Shown here one piece after another: positions 56,044-64,000 of a stretch of 64,000 nt of DNA. The stretch comes from Allobosea sp. (GTDB taxonomy: Bacteria; Pseudomonadota; Alphaproteobacteria; Rhizobiales; Beijerinckiaceae). Both the position numbers and the translations under genes were made by a program. How positions within the stretch are numbered: position 1 is the first letter of the stretch; each line of letters opens with the position of its first letter. The DNA lies in NCBI RefSeq assembly GCF_017308015.1, contig NZ_JAFKFW010000002.1, forward strand, positions 124,001 to 188,000, given 5' to 3'. The notes below the pieces were generated by a model that was not told the origin of the DNA, searched no databases, and worked only from the letters and a program-made list of their open reading frames with translations.

Positions 56044-56134
56044 GGAGACGTGGCCGAGAGGCTGAAGGCACTCGTTTGCTAAATGAGCATACCCCACAAG
56101 GGTATCGAGGGTTCGAATCCCTCCGTCTCCGCCA
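56044..56134 (+). tRNA. tRNA-Ser (GCT anticodon)
   Basis: A 91-nt class II tRNA. The acceptor stem is GGAGACG with CGTCTCC, discriminator G and encoded CCA (56132-56134). The anticodon arm is CTCGT-TTGCTAA-ATGAG with anticodon GCT at 56078-56080. A long variable arm and T-loop TTCGAAT follow. The phage integrase gene lies about 100 nt downstream on the same strand, so the 3' end of this tRNA is the likely attachment site. Confidence 0.97.
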
Positions 56135-56240
56135 CTTCCTTCTAAGCCCTTGATCGACCAGAAAAAGCGTTGTTCCCCAACGGCTTTTCACATACCTCTG
56201 CTACAAATCTTGCTACAAAATCGCTTTGGCAGAGGGCACG

Positions 56241-57953
56241 ATGGCTGGCAAAATCAGGAACCTGCTCCCCCGCAAAGGCCGCTACTATGCGCGGCTCACG
56301 GTGCCTGCTCCGCTTCGTCCGATTGTGGGTAAGCGGGAACTGACTGAGCCCTTGGGAGCCGACCGGACGGTTGCGATTCGGCTGCTGTCGTCGGCGATCC
56401 ATCGCATGCAGATGGAATTGGATCAGGCCCGCGACCGCGTTACTGCTCTGAACCCTGCCACACCCTCGCGGCGCCGCCCGATGAGCGCCCGGCAAATGGC
56501 CCTTGCCCATTTCGACCGTGAGCTTCAGCGGGATGACGCCGCCCGCAGCCTGCCGACCGGCTATGATCCGGCGCAAGCGGCGATGTTCCGCCCGACCTAC
56601 TTCTACGCGTTGAAGAGGGCTGCGAGCGGTGGCGCTGAAGATGACGAGCTCGCCGCCCTAATCCAATGGGCCGTTGACGAGTTCGCGAATGAAGGCGGCC
56701 CCGTTCCGGTCAAGGGCACCGAGGAATGGCGAACGCTCGCGCGGATGCTCGCCGGCGTGAAAGCCGAGACGATCGAAAACCAAAACCGACGCGACCGTGG
56801 CGAACCGGACGCCCCGCCGAAGCACCCCATGCTCATCCCGGCGACGGAACTGCCCTCGACCACCGCCGACCCTCTGCGCGTCCGCATCATCGGCCCGGAT
56901 AGCGCGAAGGCCCTCTCCGTCATCCTGTCGGCAATGATGACCGAGAAACAGGGCAAGCCCGGCACGGTCTACGAGTATGAAGTTGCCGTGCGGATGTTCG
57001 AGGAATTCATTGGCGAGGCGAAGCCAGCCTATCGGATCACCCGGCAGGACGTGCTCGCATACAAGAACGCTCTGCTCGAAACCCCTGCGAACTACACGAA
57101 GCGCTTCCCCGATAAGACGCTTCCGGAAGCCATTCGGCTCAACAAGGCCCGCAAGGAGCCCTTCCCCACGCTCAACGCCACGACCATCAATGACAAGTGG
57201 CTGTCGCGGCTCAGTGCCATGCTGACATGGTGCGTCAACAACAGCGTCATTCCCGACAACCCGGCGAAGGGCGTCCGCGTCGACCAAAGCAACCGCGACC
57301 CTGACGAGGACCGTGACTATTTCCGCGAGGCCGACCTTCAGAAGATATTCGCTGCGCCCTTGTTCGACCCATCGCCGAAGCTGACGGAGAAGCGGTGGGC
57401 GCTGCTGATTGCGCTCTACACCGGCATGCGAGCATCGGAGATCGCACAGATTCGCCTTGATAGCATCGCCGAGGTGCGGGGCGTGCTGGCGTTCGCCGTG
57501 GAGGAGAAGACCAAGAACAAGCAGTCGCGCCGGCTGGTGCCGGTGCACCGCGCGCTGGTCGCGCTCGGCTTGCAGGAGCGGATTGCGCATCTGCGGAAGC
57601 ACGGAGCCGAGCGCCTGTTTCCCGATTGGTTCCGGGATGGGCAGGCGATGATGCAGAGCGCGGAAGGGAAACAGCGCGCCGTCAACCAGCCGTATAGCCA
57701 GTTCATCCCGCGCTGGTTCAATCGCACCTATCTGCCCAAGGTCGGAATCCATGACCAGAACAAGGTGTTCCACTCATTCCGGCACACCGTGAAGACAGCG
57801 CTGAAGGTGGCGGGAGTGCCCAAATCGGTTCGCGATGAGATCGCCGGGCAGGATGATCGCTCGGCCGGCGCCGGCTACGAGCATGAAACCTCCCTCGACG
57901 TTCTGAAGGAGGCAATCGACCGCCTAGCCTACGACCTGCCGGCCCTGAAGTAA
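56241..57953 (+). CDS. Tyrosine-type site-specific integrase
   Basis: A 570-aa phage integrase. The N-terminal domain (ARLTVPAPLRPIVGKRELTEPLG) is the DUF6538 type seen in alphaproteobacterial prophages. There is a core-binding SAM-like region around 230-350. The catalytic domain has Arg in TGMRASEIAQIRLDS, Lys in the TKNKQSRRLVPVH beta-hairpin, HSFRHT (H-x-x-R), and the probable nucleophile Tyr in AGAGYEHE near the C-terminus. The usual G-H of the last box is G-Q here (AGQDDRS). The start ATG 56241 has AGAGGG upstream; an in-frame TTG 15 nt earlier is less likely. Confidence 0.92.
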   Translation: MAGKIRNLLPRKGRYYARLTVPAPLRPIVGKRELTEPLGADRTVAIRLLSSAIHRMQMELDQARDRVTALNPATPSRRRPMSARQMALAHFDRELQRDDAARSLPTGYDPAQAAMFRPTYFYALKRAASGGAEDDELAALIQWAVDEFANEGGPVPVKGTEEWRTLARMLAGVKAETIENQNRRDRGEPDAPPKHPMLIPATELPSTTADPLRVRIIGPDSAKALSVILSAMMTEKQGKPGTVYEYEVAVRMFEEFIGEAKPAYRITRQDVLAYKNALLETPANYTKRFPDKTLPEAIRLNKARKEPFPTLNATTINDKWLSRLSAMLTWCVNNSVIPDNPAKGVRVDQSNRDPDEDRDYFREADLQKIFAAPLFDPSPKLTEKRWALLIALYTGMRASEIAQIRLDSIAEVRGVLAFAVEEKTKNKQSRRLVPVHRALVALGLQERIAHLRKHGAERLFPDWFRDGQAMMQSAEGKQRAVNQPYSQFIPRWFNRTYLPKVGIHDQNKVFHSFRHTVKTALKVAGVPKSVRDEIAGQDDRSAGAGYEHETSLDVLKEAIDRLAYDLPALK

Positions 57954-57966
57954 GTTGGCGCTTACT

Positions 57967-58278
57967 TCAGCGAATTTTCTTGAAGCAGTCGAGTTCAACC
58001 GCGTTCTGAAAATCCTGCTTCGCTTTCTGCTGCATTTGAACGGTGCTGTAACGCGGCTCTTCGTATGCCGCGATGACAAGCTGACGCGATCCACCGGGAG
58101 CGTTGCCCATCGTTTGCAGGACTGAGCTGACTGGATGGCCATTCTGGCGGGCCTGCATGACGACTGCTGCCCATGTTCCCGCTAGCTCGCAAAGCTGTTC
58201 TGGCGTTGGCTTCTTCGTTTGTGCATGGGCCGTGACAGGCAACAGGGCGAGCAAAGCAACAGCGAGCAAGGGCTTCAT
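57967..58278 (-). CDS. Small secreted phage-encoded protein, unknown function
   Basis: A 103-aa protein with a Sec signal peptide (MKPLLAVALLALLPVTAHAQ). The mature part has two cysteines (PEQLCELAG and VELDCFKK), an R-Q-N-G-H-P-V-S-S segment and AYEEPRYSTVQMQQKAKQDF. I recall similar short secreted proteins from other proteobacterial phages, none with a known function. It is the only gene of the element read on the minus strand, convergent with the integrase (13-nt gap), which is typical of a 'moron' cargo gene expressed by the lysogen. Confidence 0.65.
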   Translation of the reverse strand: MKPLLAVALLALLPVTAHAQTKKPTPEQLCELAGTWAAVVMQARQNGHPVSSVLQTMGNAPGGSRQLVIAAYEEPRYSTVQMQQKAKQDFQNAVELDCFKKIR

Positions 58279-58354
58279 CAGGCGGTATCCATAGGCATAT
58301 TCGAGCGCGCATAGCAGCAGGTTGCACAACCTCTGTCCAGAGGTCGATAAAGGT

Positions 58355-58378
58355 ATTTGGTCCTATTTAGGATCAAAT
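58355..58378. promoter_or_regulatory. 24-bp palindrome before the capsid operon
   Basis: ATTTGGTCCTA-TT-TAGGATCAAAT, an inverted repeat with 11-bp arms and one mismatch, lies in the 172-nt divergent gap between the secreted-protein gene and the portal gene. It is far more A/T-rich than its surroundings, is not followed by a T-tract and is well placed as an operator for a phage repressor or activator acting on the structural operon and/or the minus-strand gene. Confidence 0.55.
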
Positions 58379-58419
58379 GCCATTTTCCGCTTGCCCGGCG
58401 ATTCCGCGTGTGGGAGAAT

Positions 58420-58442
58420 CTTCACCGTTGCGTAAGGTGAAG
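58420..58442 (+). promoter_or_regulatory. Hairpin overlapping the portal ribosome-binding site
   Basis: CTTCACC (58420-58426) and GGTGAAG (58436-58442) are perfect inverted repeats with a 9-nt loop. The only good Shine-Dalgarno-like sequence before the GTG start at 58451 is AAGG (58441-58444) or the AAGGTGAAGG run, so the stem would bury it. This suggests control of translation initiation for the first gene of the capsid operon. Confidence 0.4.
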
Positions 58443-58450
58443 GTTGAGTT

Positions 58451-59689
58451 GTGTTCCGCGAATTAGTCGGCAGCGTAAGGAAGTCACTCGGATTTCATCT
58501 CGATCAAAAGGCGATCCCCCTTTCTGATCCCGCTATCTCTGAGTTGTTCGGCGCGCTGCCGACTGCCTCCGGTATTCCCGTTACTGCGCACACCGCGCTT
58601 CGCGTTCCCGCCGTTCTTCAGGCCGTGCGCCTGATTGCCGAAACGGTCGGCTCCCTTCCTTGCAAGCTCTATCGCGACGCTGACGGCAGCAAGGAAGCTG
58701 CGAAGGATCACGCCGGCAACCGGCTGGCCCATAACCGCGTCAACGGCTGGACCAGCGCCGGCCATCTCCGCACGCTGCTCACGACCGACGCCCTGCTTCA
58801 TGGCGCCGGTTATGCCCATGTCGTCCGCACCAGCGACGGACGCCCCTACGAGATCAACCGCCTTCAGCCCGGCACGGTCCAGCGCCGTTTCCGTGACGAT
58901 GGCGAGCCGTTCTATGTCGTCACCTTCGCCAACAATGTCCGGCGCGAGCTGTCCTTCCGTGACTTGCTCTATGTGCCGGCGTTCGGCGACACGTCCCCGG
59001 TGCAGCTCGGCAAGGAAGCCATCGGCGTTTCCATGCTCTTGGAGCGCCACGCCGCCCAGTTCTTCGGCTCTGGCGCCCGCCCGGCTGCCGTTCTCTCGAA
59101 TGAGAAGCCACAGGGTGGTGAACAGGGCGCCACGACCATCAGCAATATCCGCAAGTCGTTCCGCAACTGGCTGGCCGCGAGCAGCAGCGATCCCCTGATT
59201 TTGGATGCCGGGTGGAAGTATGAGCAGCCGGCCATGACCTCGACCGATGCCCAGTTCCTTGAGCATCGTCTTGAGCAGGTCCGTGAGATCGCCCGCATCT
59301 TCGGCGTGCCGCCTTCCATGCTGTTCGAACTGAGCCGGGCGACGTGGAGCAATGCGGAGCAGATGGCTGCGAGCTTCCTTCAGCTCTGCCTCCGGCCTTG
59401 GCTGGACCGCTGGCAGGACGCCTATGCGACCGTGCTGCTCACCGAGGACGAGCAGGACAGCCTCTATTTCGAGTTCGTCATTGACGACCTTCAGCGCGCC
59501 GACGCGGCGGGCCGGGCGGAAATCTTCGGCAAGCTGGTCGCGATGCGCGCCATGACCCCGAACGAGGTTCGCGGCGCCATGAACCTGCCGAAGATCGAAG
59601 GCGGCGACGAGCTTGCCAATCCCTACACGACGACCGGCCCCACGTCCGGCGCGAACGACAACCCCAGCACCGACAAGGAAGCCGCGTGA
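58451..59689 (+). CDS. Phage portal protein, HK97 family
   Basis: A 412-aa dodecameric portal through which DNA enters the capsid. The sequence carries family landmarks: VTAHTALRVPAVLQAVRLIAETVGSLPCKLYRD, RVNGWTSAGHLRTLLTTDALLHGAGYAHVVR, EINRLQPGTVQRRF, PVQLGKEAIGVSMLLERHAAQFFGSGARPAAVLS, DAQFLEHRLEQVREIARIFGVPPSMLFELSRATWSNAEQMAASFLQLCLRPWLDRWQDA and MTPNEVRGAMNLPKIEGGDEL. The start is a GTG. The stop overlaps the next GTG start (GTGA). A terminase gene would normally precede it; none is present. Confidence 0.95.
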   Translation: MFRELVGSVRKSLGFHLDQKAIPLSDPAISELFGALPTASGIPVTAHTALRVPAVLQAVRLIAETVGSLPCKLYRDADGSKEAAKDHAGNRLAHNRVNGWTSAGHLRTLLTTDALLHGAGYAHVVRTSDGRPYEINRLQPGTVQRRFRDDGEPFYVVTFANNVRRELSFRDLLYVPAFGDTSPVQLGKEAIGVSMLLERHAAQFFGSGARPAAVLSNEKPQGGEQGATTISNIRKSFRNWLAASSSDPLILDAGWKYEQPAMTSTDAQFLEHRLEQVREIARIFGVPPSMLFELSRATWSNAEQMAASFLQLCLRPWLDRWQDAYATVLLTEDEQDSLYFEFVIDDLQRADAAGRAEIFGKLVAMRAMTPNEVRGAMNLPKIEGGDELANPYTTTGPTSGANDNPSTDKEAA

Positions 59690-60072
59690 AGCACGTCGCC
59701 TATTTCGGGGACGGCGAAAAGACTTTCGCCCTCACCATGCCCATGATTGCCGAGCTTGAGCGCAAGACCGGCGTCGGCATCGGCGCGCTCTATCAGCGTG
59801 TCGCGCTCACCCTCCAGTTCCATGTCGGCGACGTGGTGGAAATCATCCGGCTCGGCCTGATCGGCGGTGGCACGACCCCGGCCGAGGCCCAGAGCCTTAT
59901 CGACGCTTACACCCCGGAGCAGCCGCTTATCCCGCTGGCCATGCTCGCGGTGGACATCCTCAACGCCCGTTGGAACGAGCCCGTCACCGAGGGCCAGGAC
60001 GATGAGCCGGCCGCAACCGGCGACCTCGCCGCCGCGATCAAGGCCGCCTATGCGGACGTGCCCGATGTCTGA
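59686..60072 (+). CDS. Small GTA-gp10-like / tail-assembly-chaperone-like protein
   Basis: A 128-aa protein starting with a GTG. The pattern G-D-G-E-K-T-F-A-L-T-M-P-M-I-A-E-L-E-R-K-T-G-V-G-I-G-A-L-Y followed by an acidic helical tail (GGGTTPAEAQSLIDAYTP) matches the gene-transfer-agent gp10 / Phage_TAC_11 family. These act in tail assembly. Position is odd: it sits between portal and protease-capsid, whereas tail genes normally follow the head genes. It overlaps the portal stop by 4 nt and the next ORF by 8 nt. Confidence 0.7.
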   Translation: MKHVAYFGDGEKTFALTMPMIAELERKTGVGIGALYQRVALTLQFHVGDVVEIIRLGLIGGGTTPAEAQSLIDAYTPEQPLIPLAMLAVDILNARWNEPVTEGQDDEPAATGDLAAAIKAAYADVPDV

Positions 60073-61612
60073 GCGGCTTGAGATCAAGGCCCAGATCACG
60101 GTCGATGACGCCGGCACCATCACCGGCACGGCTTGGCCTTTCGGCACCCCGGATCGTGTCGGCGACGTGATCGAAAAGGGCGCCTTCGGCGCGCCGGCCA
60201 AGCTTCCCATGCTGTTCGCGCACGATCAGGCGCAGGCCATCGGCGTTTGGGATTCCATCAGCGAAACCGACGCCGGCCTCACCGTGAAGGGCCGGCTCCT
60301 GATCGATGATGTTGCCCGCGCCCGCGAGGTTCGCGCGCTGGTGCAGGCCGGTGCTGTGTCGGGCCTCTCCATTGGCTTCGTCAGTCAAAAGGCAGTCGCC
60401 CGCTCTCGCGGCGGCCGGACCATCAGCAAGCTCGACCTGCACGAAATCAGCATCGTCTCCGTTCCCTGCCATCCGGGAGCGCAAATCCAGTCAATCAAGG
60501 CCGTGTCGGATGGCTCGGCACCCCATCAGGAAAGTGAAATGAGCACCGCAGAGAATATCGAAACCAAGGATGCCCCGAACTTCGATCAGAAGGCGTTCGA
60601 CGCCTTTCAGGCCCGCCTCGACAAGCTGGAAGCCAAGGCCAATCGCCTCCCGGCTTCGAACGACAATCAGGCGAACGACAACATCATCCTGAAGGCTTTC
60701 GAGAGCCTGCTTCGCTTCGGCGAGCGCCGCATGCAGGCCGACGAGCAGAAGGCCCTCACCGTCGCGAATGACGGCAGCGCCGGTTATCTCGCCCCGACCG
60801 ACTACGGCAGCGAGATTCTGAAGAAGCTGGTGGAGTGGTCCCCGGTTCGCCAGTATGCCCGCGTCGTCACGGTCGGCGGCAAGGAGATCAAGTATCCGCG
60901 CAAGGTGTCCGGCGCGCAGGCCGTTTGGGTCGGCGAGACCGAGGACCGCACCGCCTCGACGATGGTCTTCGAGCAGGTCACGATTACCCCGCACGAGCTG
61001 GCGACCTTCACCGACATTTCCAACGCCCTGTTGGAAGACAACAGTTACGACCTGCGCGGCGAGCTGATCGCCGACTATTCCGAGGCGTTCGGCAAGGCCG
61101 AGGCCAGCGCTTTCGTGTCCGGCGATGGCGTCGGCAAGCCGAAGGGCATCATGGCCGCGTCCGGCCTCGCCGAGCTGAAGACTGGCGCCGCTGCCAATCT
61201 CGGCACCGACCCGGCCGCGACGCTGATCGCCATGTTCCACCAGCTTCCGCAGGTTCATGCGCAGAACGGCGTATGGATGATGAACCGCAAGACGCTGGCG
61301 GCTTTCCGCAGCCTCAAGGACGCCGATGGCCGGTTCATTCTGGTCGACCCGATCACGGCCGGCGCCGCGACCACGCTGCTCGGCCGCCCGATCGTGGAAG
61401 CAATCGACATGGACGATATCGGCGCCAACAAGTTCCCGGTGCTGTTCGGCGACCTTCAGGGCTACCGGATCATCAACCGGCTGGACCTGAACATCCTGCC
61501 CGATCCCTACACCCTCGCTTCGAAGGGCCAGGTTCGTTTCAACGCCCGCGCCCGCGTCGGTGCTGACGTGACGCATCCCGACCGCTTCGTGAAGCTGAAG
61601 GTCGCGGCGTAA
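60065..61612 (+). CDS. HK97-type prohead protease fused to major capsid protein
   Basis: A single 515-codon frame holds two phage proteins. Residues about 1-145 are the prohead protease. The expected triad is visible as His53 in LFAHDQ, Ser102 in VSGLSIGF and Glu127 in KLDLHEISIVSVPCHPG. Residues from 159 on are the major capsid protein: a short acidic coiled-coil scaffold-like delta domain (KAFDAFQARLDKLEAKANRLP), then the HK97 fold (LTVANDGSAGYLAPTDYGSEILKKL, FTDISNALLEDNSYDLRGELIADYSEAF, VFVSGDGVGKPKGIM-like FVSGDGVGKPKGIM, LDLNILPDPYTLASKGQVRFNARARVGADVTHPDRFVKL). A well-placed internal ATG at 60539 could also make free capsid. Confidence 0.9.
   Translation: MSERLEIKAQITVDDAGTITGTAWPFGTPDRVGDVIEKGAFGAPAKLPMLFAHDQAQAIGVWDSISETDAGLTVKGRLLIDDVARAREVRALVQAGAVSGLSIGFVSQKAVARSRGGRTISKLDLHEISIVSVPCHPGAQIQSIKAVSDGSAPHQESEMSTAENIETKDAPNFDQKAFDAFQARLDKLEAKANRLPASNDNQANDNIILKAFESLLRFGERRMQADEQKALTVANDGSAGYLAPTDYGSEILKKLVEWSPVRQYARVVTVGGKEIKYPRKVSGAQAVWVGETEDRTASTMVFEQVTITPHELATFTDISNALLEDNSYDLRGELIADYSEAFGKAEASAFVSGDGVGKPKGIMAASGLAELKTGAAANLGTDPAATLIAMFHQLPQVHAQNGVWMMNRKTLAAFRSLKDADGRFILVDPITAGAATTLLGRPIVEAIDMDDIGANKFPVLFGDLQGYRIINRLDLNILPDPYTLASKGQVRFNARARVGADVTHPDRFVKLKVAA
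60528..60541 (+). promoter_or_regulatory. Internal ribosome site and ATG for the capsid part
   Basis: AGGAAAG (60528-60534) lies a few nucleotides before an in-frame ATG at 60539, which corresponds to Met159 of the fusion, just where the protease ends and the capsid's MSTAENIE start resembles a normal capsid N-terminus. This would let the ribosome produce many capsid copies and few protease-capsid copies from one frame. Confidence 0.55.
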
Positions 61613-61615
61613 GCC

Positions 61616-62200
61616 ATGACCTTGCGGCCCGCCTATGACGAGATCGTTCTGGATCACGGCAGCCATGCCGTGATCCTCCGTCCGTCTTTGCGGGCCGCGA
61701 GCACCCTTGAGCGCAATATCGGCTTCGACCGCCTCTTTCAGCGCATCGGCGAGTTTCACACCGGCACGGTGCGAGAGATCATCCTGACGGCCGCGACAGA
61801 CCGCAAGGACGCCACCCGTTTCCTGCGCTCCCTCGAAAGTAAGTCGCTGCTTACTTTCCAGCGGATCGCCCAGATTCCAGCCGCCCAGCTTGTCGTCGGC
61901 TTCATGCCCCAGAGCGAGGGCAACTCCGCATCGCACAGCAAGGCCGTGCCGTGGCGCGAGGCCTATCGCAACCTGTTCCGCGCAGCGACCGGCATTCTCG
62001 GCTGGTCCCCGGAAGAGGCTTGGAATGCCACTCCGACCGAAATCAATGAAGCTTTCATCGGCCGTGTAGGCGAGCCTGACCAGCAAGCCCAGCACGACCC
62101 CGCACAGGCCGCTCGTAACGAATCCGCTGGCCTCGACCCCGAATTTGACCGCGCCGGCCTTCAGGCCCTCAAGGCCAAGTATGGACGGAAGTCCCGATGA
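61616..62200 (+). CDS. Tail-assembly-chaperone-like protein (two-part)
   Basis: A 194-aa protein. The N-terminal about 75 residues (AVILRPSLRAASTLERNIGFDRLFQRIGEFHTGTVREIIL) resemble the gp10/TAC_11 type. The middle has GWSPEEAWNATPTEINEAF, the signature of the short GTA-associated TAC_6 family (G-W-x-P-x-x-x-W-x-A-T-P-x-E). In gene transfer agents these two are separate neighbouring genes; here they look fused. It starts 3 nt after the capsid stop and overlaps the HNH gene by 4 nt. Assignment is by pattern recall. Confidence 0.65.
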   Translation: MTLRPAYDEIVLDHGSHAVILRPSLRAASTLERNIGFDRLFQRIGEFHTGTVREIILTAATDRKDATRFLRSLESKSLLTFQRIAQIPAAQLVVGFMPQSEGNSASHSKAVPWREAYRNLFRAATGILGWSPEEAWNATPTEINEAFIGRVGEPDQQAQHDPAQAARNESAGLDPEFDRAGLQALKAKYGRKSR

Positions 62201-62547
62201 GCCGCCGTCCGCCCCGCCTTTGCTCTTGTGGCAGCATCGTCGCCCATGGCGCCCGTTGCCAGTGCCAGCGCGAGCAGGATCGCGTTCGCGGCGCCCGCCA
62301 TGATCGTGCCCGTCCTAACGCCCGCCAGCGCGGCTATGATCGGCAGTGGGAAGAGACGGCCCGCGCTTATCTGCGCCAGCCCGGCAATCAGCGCTGCGAA
62401 TGCGGCGCACCCGCCACCCTTGTCCGGCACCGCATCAGCATCCGCCAGCATCCCGAGCTTCGCATGTCGCCCGCCAACTGGCGCCCCGGCTGTCGTCGCT
62501 GCAACGCCCTCGACTACATCCACGAACGCCAGAGAGAACCCCGATGA
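62197..62547 (+). CDS. Phage HNH endonuclease
   Basis: A 116-aa HNH nuclease of the type found next to phage packaging genes. It has an N-terminal zinc-ribbon-like cluster (CSCGSIVAHGARCQC), the family's R-x-x-x-R-G-Y-D-R-Q-W-E-E segment, a second cysteine pair (RCECGAP), and the HNH region LVRHRISIRQHPELRMSPANWRPGCRRCNALDYIHE. The usual first H is preceded by Arg rather than Asp (VRH not VDH). ATGA overlap with the preceding gene. Confidence 0.82.
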   Translation: MSRRPPRLCSCGSIVAHGARCQCQREQDRVRGARHDRARPNARQRGYDRQWEETARAYLRQPGNQRCECGAPATLVRHRISIRQHPELRMSPANWRPGCRRCNALDYIHERQREPR

Positions 62548-62831
62548 GCCTTGTAAAGAAGATCACCCTTCAGCCCGGAGAATGGACGCCGCTTGAGATC
62601 ACCATGACTTGGCAGGTCATTGGCCAGAAGGCAGTGCGTTACACCTTTGGATGGTTCCCGCCTGAAGGAAATAAGACCATTGATAACCTTGTCGCACCTG
62701 ATGCGGCCACTCCGTATTTCGTCACACAGGACTTCGACCGCAGCACATCGAAGCATCCTTATTACCTGTGGTCGCCGAACGCCTACTTCATGCCGGACGG
62801 CAATGAGCCGGTTGACGTGGTGTATCTCTGA
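62544..62831 (+). CDS. Hypothetical phage protein
   Basis: A 95-aa beta-rich protein (MSLVKKITLQPGEWTPLEITMTWQVIGQKAVRYTFGWFPPEG..., aromatic-rich C-terminus PYYLWSPNAYFMPDG). No family recognised. It may be a small head-decoration or tail component given its place between HNH and connector genes. Overlaps the HNH gene by 4 nt and the next gene by 1 nt (TGATG). Confidence 0.5.
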   Translation: MSLVKKITLQPGEWTPLEITMTWQVIGQKAVRYTFGWFPPEGNKTIDNLVAPDAATPYFVTQDFDRSTSKHPYYLWSPNAYFMPDGNEPVDVVYL

Positions 62832-63091
62832 TGCCGCGTCCTGCCCTGCATTCCTATCGTGGCCAGCAGTTCACGCTTGCCCAGCTTGCCAGCCTCACAG
62901 GCATCGCGGCTGACACGCTGCGCCATCGTCTGGCGCTCGGCTGGACCATTGAGCAGGCCGTGACCGTGCCGACCCCTGCCCAGCGGCGCCGGGGGGTGGT
63001 CGTCAATTTTCCGGGCGTTTTGGGGACCGACCCGGGGAGCACCGTGCAAGAGACGCCCGAAATAACTTTTTCCGAAGAGGCCAATTCCTGA
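62831..63091 (+). CDS. Small phage protein with HTH-like N-terminus
   Basis: An 86-aa protein. The segment FTLAQLASLTGIAADTLRHRLALGWTIEQAV looks like the short HTH module often found in phage regulators and homing-nuclease-associated proteins. The C-terminal half is Gly/Thr-rich and probably disordered. It shares one base with the genes on both sides (TGATG), so it belongs to the coupled structural operon rather than being an independent regulator. Confidence 0.5.
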   Translation: MPRPALHSYRGQQFTLAQLASLTGIAADTLRHRLALGWTIEQAVTVPTPAQRRRGVVVNFPGVLGTDPGSTVQETPEITFSEEANS

Positions 63092-63417
63092 TGAGTTGCG
63101 TAACGCTTTCCCTCGCGAAGGCGCAGGTAAATGTCGAGCATTCGGCCGACGATGAGCTGATTCAGCTCTATATTGATGCCGCTGAAGCTTGGTTTGAGAA
63201 CCACACCGGCCGAAAGCTCGCCAATCTTTCGCCGGTGCCCGCCGACATTCGACGCGCAATCCTGCTCCTTACCGGCTTCTATTACATGCACCGCGAGGCC
63301 GTTTCTTACGGCGATGCAGTGCGTATGGCGCCGTTCGGGGTGCAGGCAGTGGCCAATTTCTACCGGGAACGGTGGTTCGGCGAGCCGGCGCCCGAGGATG
63401 ACGACGATGAGTTCTGA
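63091..63417 (+). CDS. Head-tail connector protein (gp6-like)
   Basis: A 108-aa protein of the HK97 gp6 / phi-E125 gp8 connector family: MSCVTLSLAKAQVNVEHSADDELIQLYIDAAEAWFENHTGRKL, followed by PADIRRAILLLTGFYYMHREAV and an acidic C-terminus. These form the adaptor ring under the portal. The stop lies 11 nt inside the next gene. Confidence 0.85.
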   Translation: MSCVTLSLAKAQVNVEHSADDELIQLYIDAAEAWFENHTGRKLANLSPVPADIRRAILLLTGFYYMHREAVSYGDAVRMAPFGVQAVANFYRERWFGEPAPEDDDDEF

Positions 63418-63820
63418 CCTCGACCGGCTCAATCGTCGGTTTGACGCGGTGCTTAGGAATGTCCGTGAGGTGGTTCAGCCCGCTCTTTTGAAGGGCGCGA
63501 ACGAGATCGCAGACATGCAGCGCATGCTCGCGCCTGAAGATACGGGCGACTTGAAGGATTCGATCACGGTGACGCCGCCCGGTGGCACAACCCCGCCCTA
63601 TTCGCAGCCGGGTGGCAGCCGGACAGTCGGCGAAAATCAGGCAGTTGTGACAGTGGGCAACACCGATGTTCGCTATCCCCACTTTGTTGAATTCGGCACC
63701 AGCGTCACGCCCGCGCAGCCGTTCTTTTGGCCCGGCTATCGCCTCCGGCGAAAGCGCGCGCTCGACCGTATCAAGCGTTCGATCCGTAAGGCCGTCCGCA
63801 CCGGATGGGACTCGCCGTGA
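63407..63820 (+). CDS. HK97-gp10 family tail-completion protein
   Basis: A 137-aa protein matching the HK97 gp10 / GTA tail-attachment family: LKGANEIADMQRMLAPEDTGDLKDSITV, then VRYPHFVEFGTSVTPAQPFFWPGYRLRRKRALDRIKRSIRKAV. The PHFVEFGT...P-A-Q-P-F-x-x-P-x-x-R block is diagnostic. The ATG at 63407 starts inside the connector gene. Confidence 0.85.
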   Translation: MSSDLDRLNRRFDAVLRNVREVVQPALLKGANEIADMQRMLAPEDTGDLKDSITVTPPGGTTPPYSQPGGSRTVGENQAVVTVGNTDVRYPHFVEFGTSVTPAQPFFWPGYRLRRKRALDRIKRSIRKAVRTGWDSP

Positions 63821-64000
63821 TTGAACCCACCATTGCCTTCCGCGAGGCCCTTGGCTTCCATCTCGCCAGCGACCCGGCCGTCATCGCGCTTGTAGACCCC
63901 GAGAACATCCGGGCCGGTGACTTCGCGCCGGACGAGCTTCCCGCCATCCTTTTCGGCGCCGGTAATGTCATGATGCACGGCCGCGCGTCCGGTCCCCAGT
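63817..64000 (+). CDS. DUF3168-like tail terminator protein, 5' part (runs off the window)
   Basis: GTG start overlapping the previous stop (GTGA). The visible 61 codons (IEPTIAFREALGFHLASDPAVIALV, then IRAGDFAPDELPAILFG) resemble the DUF3168 / gp17 tail-completion family, which normally follows the gp10-like gene in head-tail junction clusters. The 3' end lies beyond position 64000. Confidence 0.7.
   Translation, partial: MIEPTIAFREALGFHLASDPAVIALVDPENIRAGDFAPDELPAILFGAGNVMMHGRASGPQ

Follow-up and report, generated by a model that had tools for sequence, protein, structure and literature searches.

An integrative element at a serine tRNA gene

The stretch of Allobosea sp. DNA analysed here (contig NZ_JAFKFW010000002.1, positions 124,001 to 188,000; 64,000 nucleotides, hereafter the window) stops inside an integrative element that begins at a tRNA-Ser(GCT) gene and encodes its own integrase, a phage-type head, and several tail proteins. 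Coordinates past the window end are extended coordinates, taken from the next stretches of the same contig; there, an exact copy of the 19-bp tRNA-Ser 3' end repeat, TCCCTCCGTCTCCGCCACT, was found 17,562 bp from the first, as a preliminary description of this DNA had assumed. The element bounded by these attachment (att) sites is 17,562 bp (~17.6 kb) long and has the following gene order (L numbers denote loci and stretches in this analysis; RcGTA is a gene transfer agent, GTA):

56044..56134, + strand: tRNA-Ser(GCT), the integration target, intact on the left side (ARAGORN)
56118..56136, + strand: attL, 19 bp, tRNA-Ser 3' end repeat, exact match to attR
56241..57953, + strand: tyrosine integrase, 570 aa (PF00589, E = 6e-11; DUF6538)
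57967..58329, - strand: small secreted-type protein (signal peptide judged by eye; 38.6% identical homologue in L081)
58451..59689, + strand: portal (PF04860, E = 2e-80)
59686..60072, + strand: tail assembly chaperone TAC_11, RcGTA gp10 type (PF11836, E = 9e-24)
60065..61612, + strand: prohead protease fused to major capsid protein (PF04586 and PF05065)
61616..62200, + strand: second tail assembly chaperone, TAC_6 (PF09550, E = 3e-6)
62197..62547, + strand: HNH-type nuclease, assigned by its homologue in L035 (PF01844, E = 2e-7)
62544..62831, + strand: 95-aa protein, no Pfam or PHROG match
62831..63091, + strand: 86-aa protein, weak UBA-like and HNH-associated matches
63091..63417, + strand: head-tail connector, gp6-like (Ad1) (PF05135, phrog_40)
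63407..63820, + strand: HK97 gp10-like tail completion/Neck1 protein (PF04883, phrog_5)
63805..64230 (extended; the window cuts it at 64000), + strand: tail terminator, DUF3168/gp17 (PF11367, E = 3e-14; phrog_176)
64218-64550 (extended), + strand: head closure (PF05521)
64547-64948 (extended), + strand: TerS (PF05119)
64945-66579 (extended), + strand: TerL (PF03354/PF20441)
66589-68808 (extended), + strand: tape measure protein (TMP), 739 aa (PF20155)
69336-71644 (extended), + strand: five small genes, one of them for an 84-aa protein (70541-70795)
71836-73563 (extended; L002:16836-18563), + strand: methyltransferase with a restriction-like domain (PF01555, PF04471/PF22722)
73680-73698 (extended), + strand: attR, exact copy of the 19-bp attL

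As described before, the integrase is followed almost directly by a capsid operon, with the antisense gene for the small secreted-type protein as the sole gene before the portal. The headline of the preliminary description, that a terminase is absent, was wrong, since TerS and TerL lie in the same gene run from 547 bp past the window end. An unusual order had also been proposed; the portal indeed leads the operon and the terminase comes late, after the head genes and directly ahead of the tape measure, but the control genes placed at the far end were not recognised. In the Mesorhizobium phage vB_MseS-P1 (P1), the corresponding spot holds the tail terminator, tube, and chaperone. No internal stop occurs in the 20 reading frames of the element that were checked.

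In Pfam, the protein at 62197..62547 itself matched no HNH family; its hidden Markov model (HMM) has matches in 53 of the 58 loci tabulated below. The 86-aa protein may perhaps bind DNA. The methyltransferase gene at the right end has a G+C content of 54%, compared with 66% in the window, and to the right of attR (L003:31-1692) lies a 553-aa open reading frame (ORF) with RTX calcium-binding repeats.

A full head set and a partial tail

The head and packaging set is full, comprising the portal, protease-capsid, HNH-type protein, connector, neck, closure, TerS, and TerL, and the tail parts carried are the tail terminator, two tail chaperones, and the tape measure. Pfam and PHROG scans of the element proteins (with the antisense gene outside the libraries, the HNH-type protein compared with Pfam only, and the 84-aa protein with PHROGs only) matched no family for tube, distal tail, hub, peptidase, or fibre, nor for lysis, primase, replication initiator, or CI/Cro-type repressor. 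As a positive control, the PHROG library strongly matched the tube, distal tail, 'tail protein' (hub), tail fibre (megatron), endolysin, and replication protein of phage P1, while the P1 peptidase matched just a function-less family. The tube, tip, lysis, replication, and repressor genes that a complete temperate siphophage would carry went unrecognised in the element. The absence of repressor and replication genes claimed earlier held after extension to attR, and of the combination that would have spoken against a reduced element (terminase, repressor, and replication genes within the att repeats, and full-length phages with the same order) only the terminase was found.

Among 112 otherwise unclassified ORFs from 16 att-bounded relatives (112 of their 130 small ORFs; those of the window were scanned separately), no match had lysis, primase, CI/Cro, hub, baseplate, or fibre in its family name, and the families that were matched included a gpM-type minor tail protein (five members), domains of unknown function, and cargo-like families. 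Neither AlpA nor Pri-Rep families were found among the scanned element proteins or these 112 ORFs. ORF calling in the relatives used a simple script that filters on G+C by codon position, so short or A+T-rich genes there may be missed. In a PADLOC scan, ORFs of the relatives yielded four isolated matches of defence type.

The 'tail tube protein' label that TAC_11 carries in Pfam and PHROG raised it as a cryptic tube, a candidate that was rejected since the RcGTA tube protein is g9 (as given in passages of PMC7296036) and AlphaFold models of both chaperones are mainly helical, unlike the beta sandwich of tube-type proteins. The TAC_11 model has a predicted local distance difference test score (pLDDT) of 85, and the second chaperone (pLDDT 83) shows the N-terminal strand/helix order of the TAC_11 model with TAC_6 in addition. 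A PDB fold search with the TAC_11 model returned nothing below E = 1 and was uninformative, and PDB sequence searches with TAC_11 and head closure gave no significant match.

An att-bounded integrative element without recognised genes for a complete particle and lysis has the general make-up of a phage satellite. The favoured reading, held at a probability of roughly 0.7, is a capsid-forming phage satellite that makes its own head and tape measure and takes tube and tip from a helper, with the dependence on a helper inferred from the missing genes. The reduced, capsid-encoding element suggested in the preliminary description is in this respect borne out, the head set being present while tube, tip, lysis, replication, and repressor genes are unrecognised.

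A conserved and probably mobile family

Searches with TerL fetched seven loci from GTDB genomes and 19 from IMG/VR, and of the 397 genomes searched in the host's order, 28, one of them the host, have a TerL match at E <= 1e-80. Similar operons with divergent integrases occur at several tRNAs in the Rhodobacterales and Hyphomicrobiales and also in IMG/VR. Across 58 tabulated loci, HMMs matched the capsid in 55, portal in 54, TMP in 52, neck in 47, TAC_6 in 42, and TAC_11 in 38, counts that cover matches within 12.5 kb of TerL, some of them weak, include IMG/VR duplicates (L013, L014, and L016) and truncated contigs, leave out L028, L029, L032, and L034, and underestimate L031, where the element crosses the record start. 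In a TerL tree (root unsure; three duplicates and TerL rows <=400 aa dropped), the window falls in a group of 27 rows (support 98/94) with elements from Roseovarius, Pseudorhodobacter, Paracoccus, Bosea, Ochrobactrum, Brucella grignonensis, Martelella, and Sinorhizobium.

The distant loci include head-only forms, and labelling the tree by gene content gave no decidable single origin for the head-only or the tube-bearing forms; one 'head-only' row, L027, is just a truncated contig. The head-only distant relative L079 has a Prim-Pol/DUF3987 protein upstream of the portal (L079:15063-17609), which suggests that a primase is supplied by some of the distant members themselves. Bacteriophage sp. 103231 (18 kb) was rejected as a relative: this is an incomplete record, and the tailed phage it comes from has tube and tip genes. 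In L035, on Sinorhizobium meliloti pSymB, the tape measure (L035:13653-16370) has a VanY-type peptidase domain, and PLSDB flags it, at 30.7% identity, as the glycopeptide resistance gene vanY, likely a false resistance call; passages of PMC11476347 mention phage-related sequences on pSymB and do not label them a satellite.

Exact tRNA 3' end repeats flank 16 of 20 relatives tested, at Ser, Thr, Val, Pro, Gln, and Leu tRNAs. The 20 were picked from 27 loci with an ARAGORN tRNA, leaving out L021, L079, L087, L090, L093, L098, and L099, and the four misses include the truncated L018 and L006, which has no integrase in its stretch. With the window included (n = 17), the att-bounded length averages 17,571 bp (standard deviation 695; range 15,887-18,874 bp), a range of which the upper end, not the lower, is partly set by the fetch, since the fetched stretches fit 17.5-22 kb and elements much longer than 18-20 kb escape detection. 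Closed circular plasmids reach similar sizes: one of 17,494 bp from Paracoccus marcusii has the same operon and a Rep3 initiator, and related sets occur on plasmids of Methylorubrum (16,127 bp), Roseomonas (16,883 bp, with an insertion sequence), and M. populi (pMPOP02, 23,392 bp, with a Tn3-type insertion). The Tn3-family transposon region of pMPOP02 spans L031:9356-14405, and without it the plasmid is estimated at ~18 kb. That integrated and plasmid forms are alike in length suggests that the head can take up only a limited amount of DNA.

The integrases of relatives diverge widely. That of the window shares 46% identity with those of L072 and L076, of which L076 also has the same tRNA-Ser att core, while the closest head module, in Bosea L004, has a TerL 93% identical and an integrase just 26% identical. 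The plan is not uniform in six relatives: in contrast to the window element, L071, L072, L075, L076, and L083 have the integrase at the end distal to the intact tRNA, and L081 has it at the tRNA end, on the strand opposite to the operon.

These properties bear on the improbable alternative that the element belongs to a decayed, immobile prophage lineage that lost its tail and control genes. The lack of recognised lysis, replication, and tip genes would agree with decay, as would that of gpM, which follows the tape measure in the nearest relative, L004, and was not found in the window element. However, besides the intact reading frames, the twelve genes compared with L004 are under purifying selection (ratio of non-synonymous to synonymous substitution, dN/dS, 0.03-0.37; the comparison left out protease-capsid, neck, and several small genes), elements of like size sit at many tRNAs, the family is spread over orders and has closed plasmid forms, and integrases have been exchanged between close head modules. 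The family is conserved and no wreck. In L004 itself the protease-capsid gene lies in two overlapping frames (L004:4764-6471), a frameshift or assembly error.

Candidate helpers and points that weigh against a satellite

The tail-facing proteins point, moderately, to alphaproteobacterial siphophages as partners. Most of the TMP can be aligned, at 35-36% identity, with its counterparts in Mesorhizobium P1, Rhizobium TM3_3_14B, and Labrenzia V1, and the top four of its 982 ranked phage records are alphaproteobacterial phages. The neck protein matches ten phage records, nine with alphaproteobacterial host names (Rhizobium, Sinorhizobium, Mesorhizobium, or Labrenzia, some near-duplicates) and one from Streptomyces. 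By comparison, the matches listed for TerL (best 25 of 1559) and portal (best 8 of 1695), at 30-34% identity, are mainly to gut Firmicutes, gammaproteobacterial, and streptococcal phages, and none of these names an alphaproteobacterial host. The most likely helpers would be alphaproteobacterial siphophages of the Mesorhizobium P1, Rhizobium 16-3, or Labrenzia V1 kind.

Several observations weigh against a tail-borrowing satellite. The contrast between head and tail-facing proteins is imperfect, because the 982 TMP records are by number mostly enterobacterial and pseudomonad phages (287 of them at 60-80% identity, none among the matches listed), the capsid matches listed include Rhizobium and Azospirillum phages, and the portal shares 31% identity with its P1 counterpart. 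In tblastn at 1e-5, neither TAC_11 nor the terminator matched any phage. A second TMP of this type, such as 7 of 35 carriers have elsewhere in the genome, is absent from the host genome, and so no resident helper is known for this host. Tail dependence also varies, since HMMs matched a lambda-like tube in 7 of the 58 loci and gpM in 12 of the 58, and pMPOP02 also carries such a tube. Among the relatives' ORFs there are single matches to the tube families PF08813, PF16460, phrog_158, and phrog_584, two matches to phrog_9574, named merely 'tail protein', one match to the replication-associated PF23343, and several to PHROGs without function. The limits that the fetch sets on the size range belong here as well.

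Tube-bearing relatives and the matchless small proteins, the unexplained 95-aa protein at 62544-62831 and several others, would also be expected of a self-sufficient small phage with tube and tip proteins too divergent for recognition, and an unrecognised gene could encode a tube. Yet the unassigned proteins of the element are <=183 aa, small for a hub, tip, or fibres, and no lysis family appeared in the 112 ORFs of the 16 relatives, which makes such a phage a decidedly improbable explanation.

Relation to the gene transfer agent of the host

The host has an RcGTA-like cluster with tube and tip on the same contig, outside the window (C16 about 312-326 kb, L069), called RcGTA-like from family matches and ORF layout; its tape measure is short, at 211 aa. 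A GTA is by definition a host locus without integrase or att sites and with complete tail genes. That the element is itself a domesticated, GTA-like particle, one branch of the preliminary interpretation, finds some resemblance in its RcGTA-type chaperones and in a capsid and protease that share 34% and 43% identity with their host GTA counterparts. With an integrase and att sites present, relatives at different tRNAs and so a variable location, patchy carriage (28/397), a separate GTA-like cluster in the host, and RcGTA-type tube and tip HMMs unmatched, that branch falls away as very improbable. Across the family, RcGTA-type tube, distal, hub, peptidase, and megatron HMMs matched none of the 58 loci, and neither PF13550 nor PF06199 was present in 12 IMG/VR records or four plasmid records.

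An unlikely source of the missing parts is this GTA in place of a phage, the satellite making its own small head and tape measure, onto which the GTA tube protein and tip of the host would polymerise. If true, a vertically inherited host particle would be the helper of a selfish element, linking two separate fields. The only PF06199 tube and PF13550 tip matches of the host sit 6 kb apart in the RcGTA-like cluster, and in searches of whole carrier genomes PF13550 was present in 8 of 8 and PF06199 in 7 of 8. GTA_TIM occurs in 26 of 28 carriers versus 239 of 369 other genomes of the order (Fisher P = 0.0015); stratified by family, 26 were observed where 22.5 were expected (P = 0.039), or 22.3 with three unlisted genomes put in likely families (P = 0.027). 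This association is weak, however, with family labels tallied by hand, and carriers G201 and G389 are without GTA_TIM. The 739-aa TMP aligns weakly with the 211-aa TMP of the host GTA and mostly full-length with the siphophage TMPs, a PF13550 or PF06199 match need not be a GTA, carriage needs no helper, and PF13547 can also occur in phages, which counts against GTA borrowing.

Comparison with known systems

The following comparisons draw on passages of the papers cited. Like the capsid-forming phage-inducible chromosomal islands (cf-PICIs; average genome 14 kb; PMC10803314, PMC10690885, PMC10448857, PMC11389934), the element is integrative and small, without a complete tail, and has its own capsid, protease, portal, connectors, TerS, TerL, and HNH, the last only through a homologue. 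It differs in its size of 17.6 kb, in having the portal first and the terminase late, in lacking a detected AlpA or Pri-Rep, and in carrying a tape measure, a pair of chaperones, and a tail terminator of its own, where cf-PICIs are described as borrowing the whole tail. Because of the missing AlpA/Pri-Rep and the tail genes that are present, the element is not filed as a cf-PICI, although a capsid-forming satellite remains the best reading of how it works. The main cf-PICI hosts listed in the passages of PMC10803314 do not include Alphaproteobacteria, while those of PMC10690885 call cf-PICIs widely distributed across Bacteria.

The Streptomyces satellites MulchRoom and MiniFlayer (PMC10690885) also combine capsid and packaging genes and HNH with the lack of a primase, and MulchRoom shares an integrase and an inferred helper-derived long tail; these satellites differ in their hosts and in their direct terminal repeats, and the term 'tape measure' is absent from the text of that paper. 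A putative tape measure without most tail genes has already been noted in terminase-less, RepA_N-bearing putative satellites of E. coli (PMC10448857), which have capsid genes and lie mostly next to tRNAs but which, unlike the element, are without terminase, prohead protease, and head-tail adapters and have RepA and a predicted baseplate component. Small satellite phage-plasmids without structural genes have been described as well (PMC4490671). With RcGTA and RcGTA-tailed siphophages (PMC7296036; vB_MseS-P1) the element shares TAC_11, the capsid and protease types, and TMP and neck relatives; the annotation of vB_MseS-P1 lists tube, distal tail, hub, and megatron, none of which was recognised in the element. 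A search of titles and abstracts found no paper on satellites of this kind in Alphaproteobacteria.

Proposed mode of spread and significance

Since relatives in other alphaproteobacteria share the head and ruler and a plan without recognisable tube or tip, its probable way of spreading is with tail parts taken from a phage. Upon infection or induction of a helper, the element would excise, be replicated by helper or host, and package its ~17.5 kb into its own small head. Helper tube protein would then polymerise on the tape measure of the element to give a tail of element-set length, which the element's terminator would close and for which the helper would supply the tip, with helper lysis releasing the particles.

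With ruler, chaperones, and terminator kept and no recognisable tube or tip, tail assembly seems split between two genomes, and what is new here is this division of labour, in which the tape measure, chaperones, and terminator are the element's own and tube and tip are presumably foreign. The family, whose terminase is present in about one of fourteen genomes of the host's order, belongs to a class, the Alphaproteobacteria, in which no capsid-forming satellite has been described in the literature as far as it was searched, and it would open the mutual recognition of tape measure, chaperone, and tube proteins to testing.

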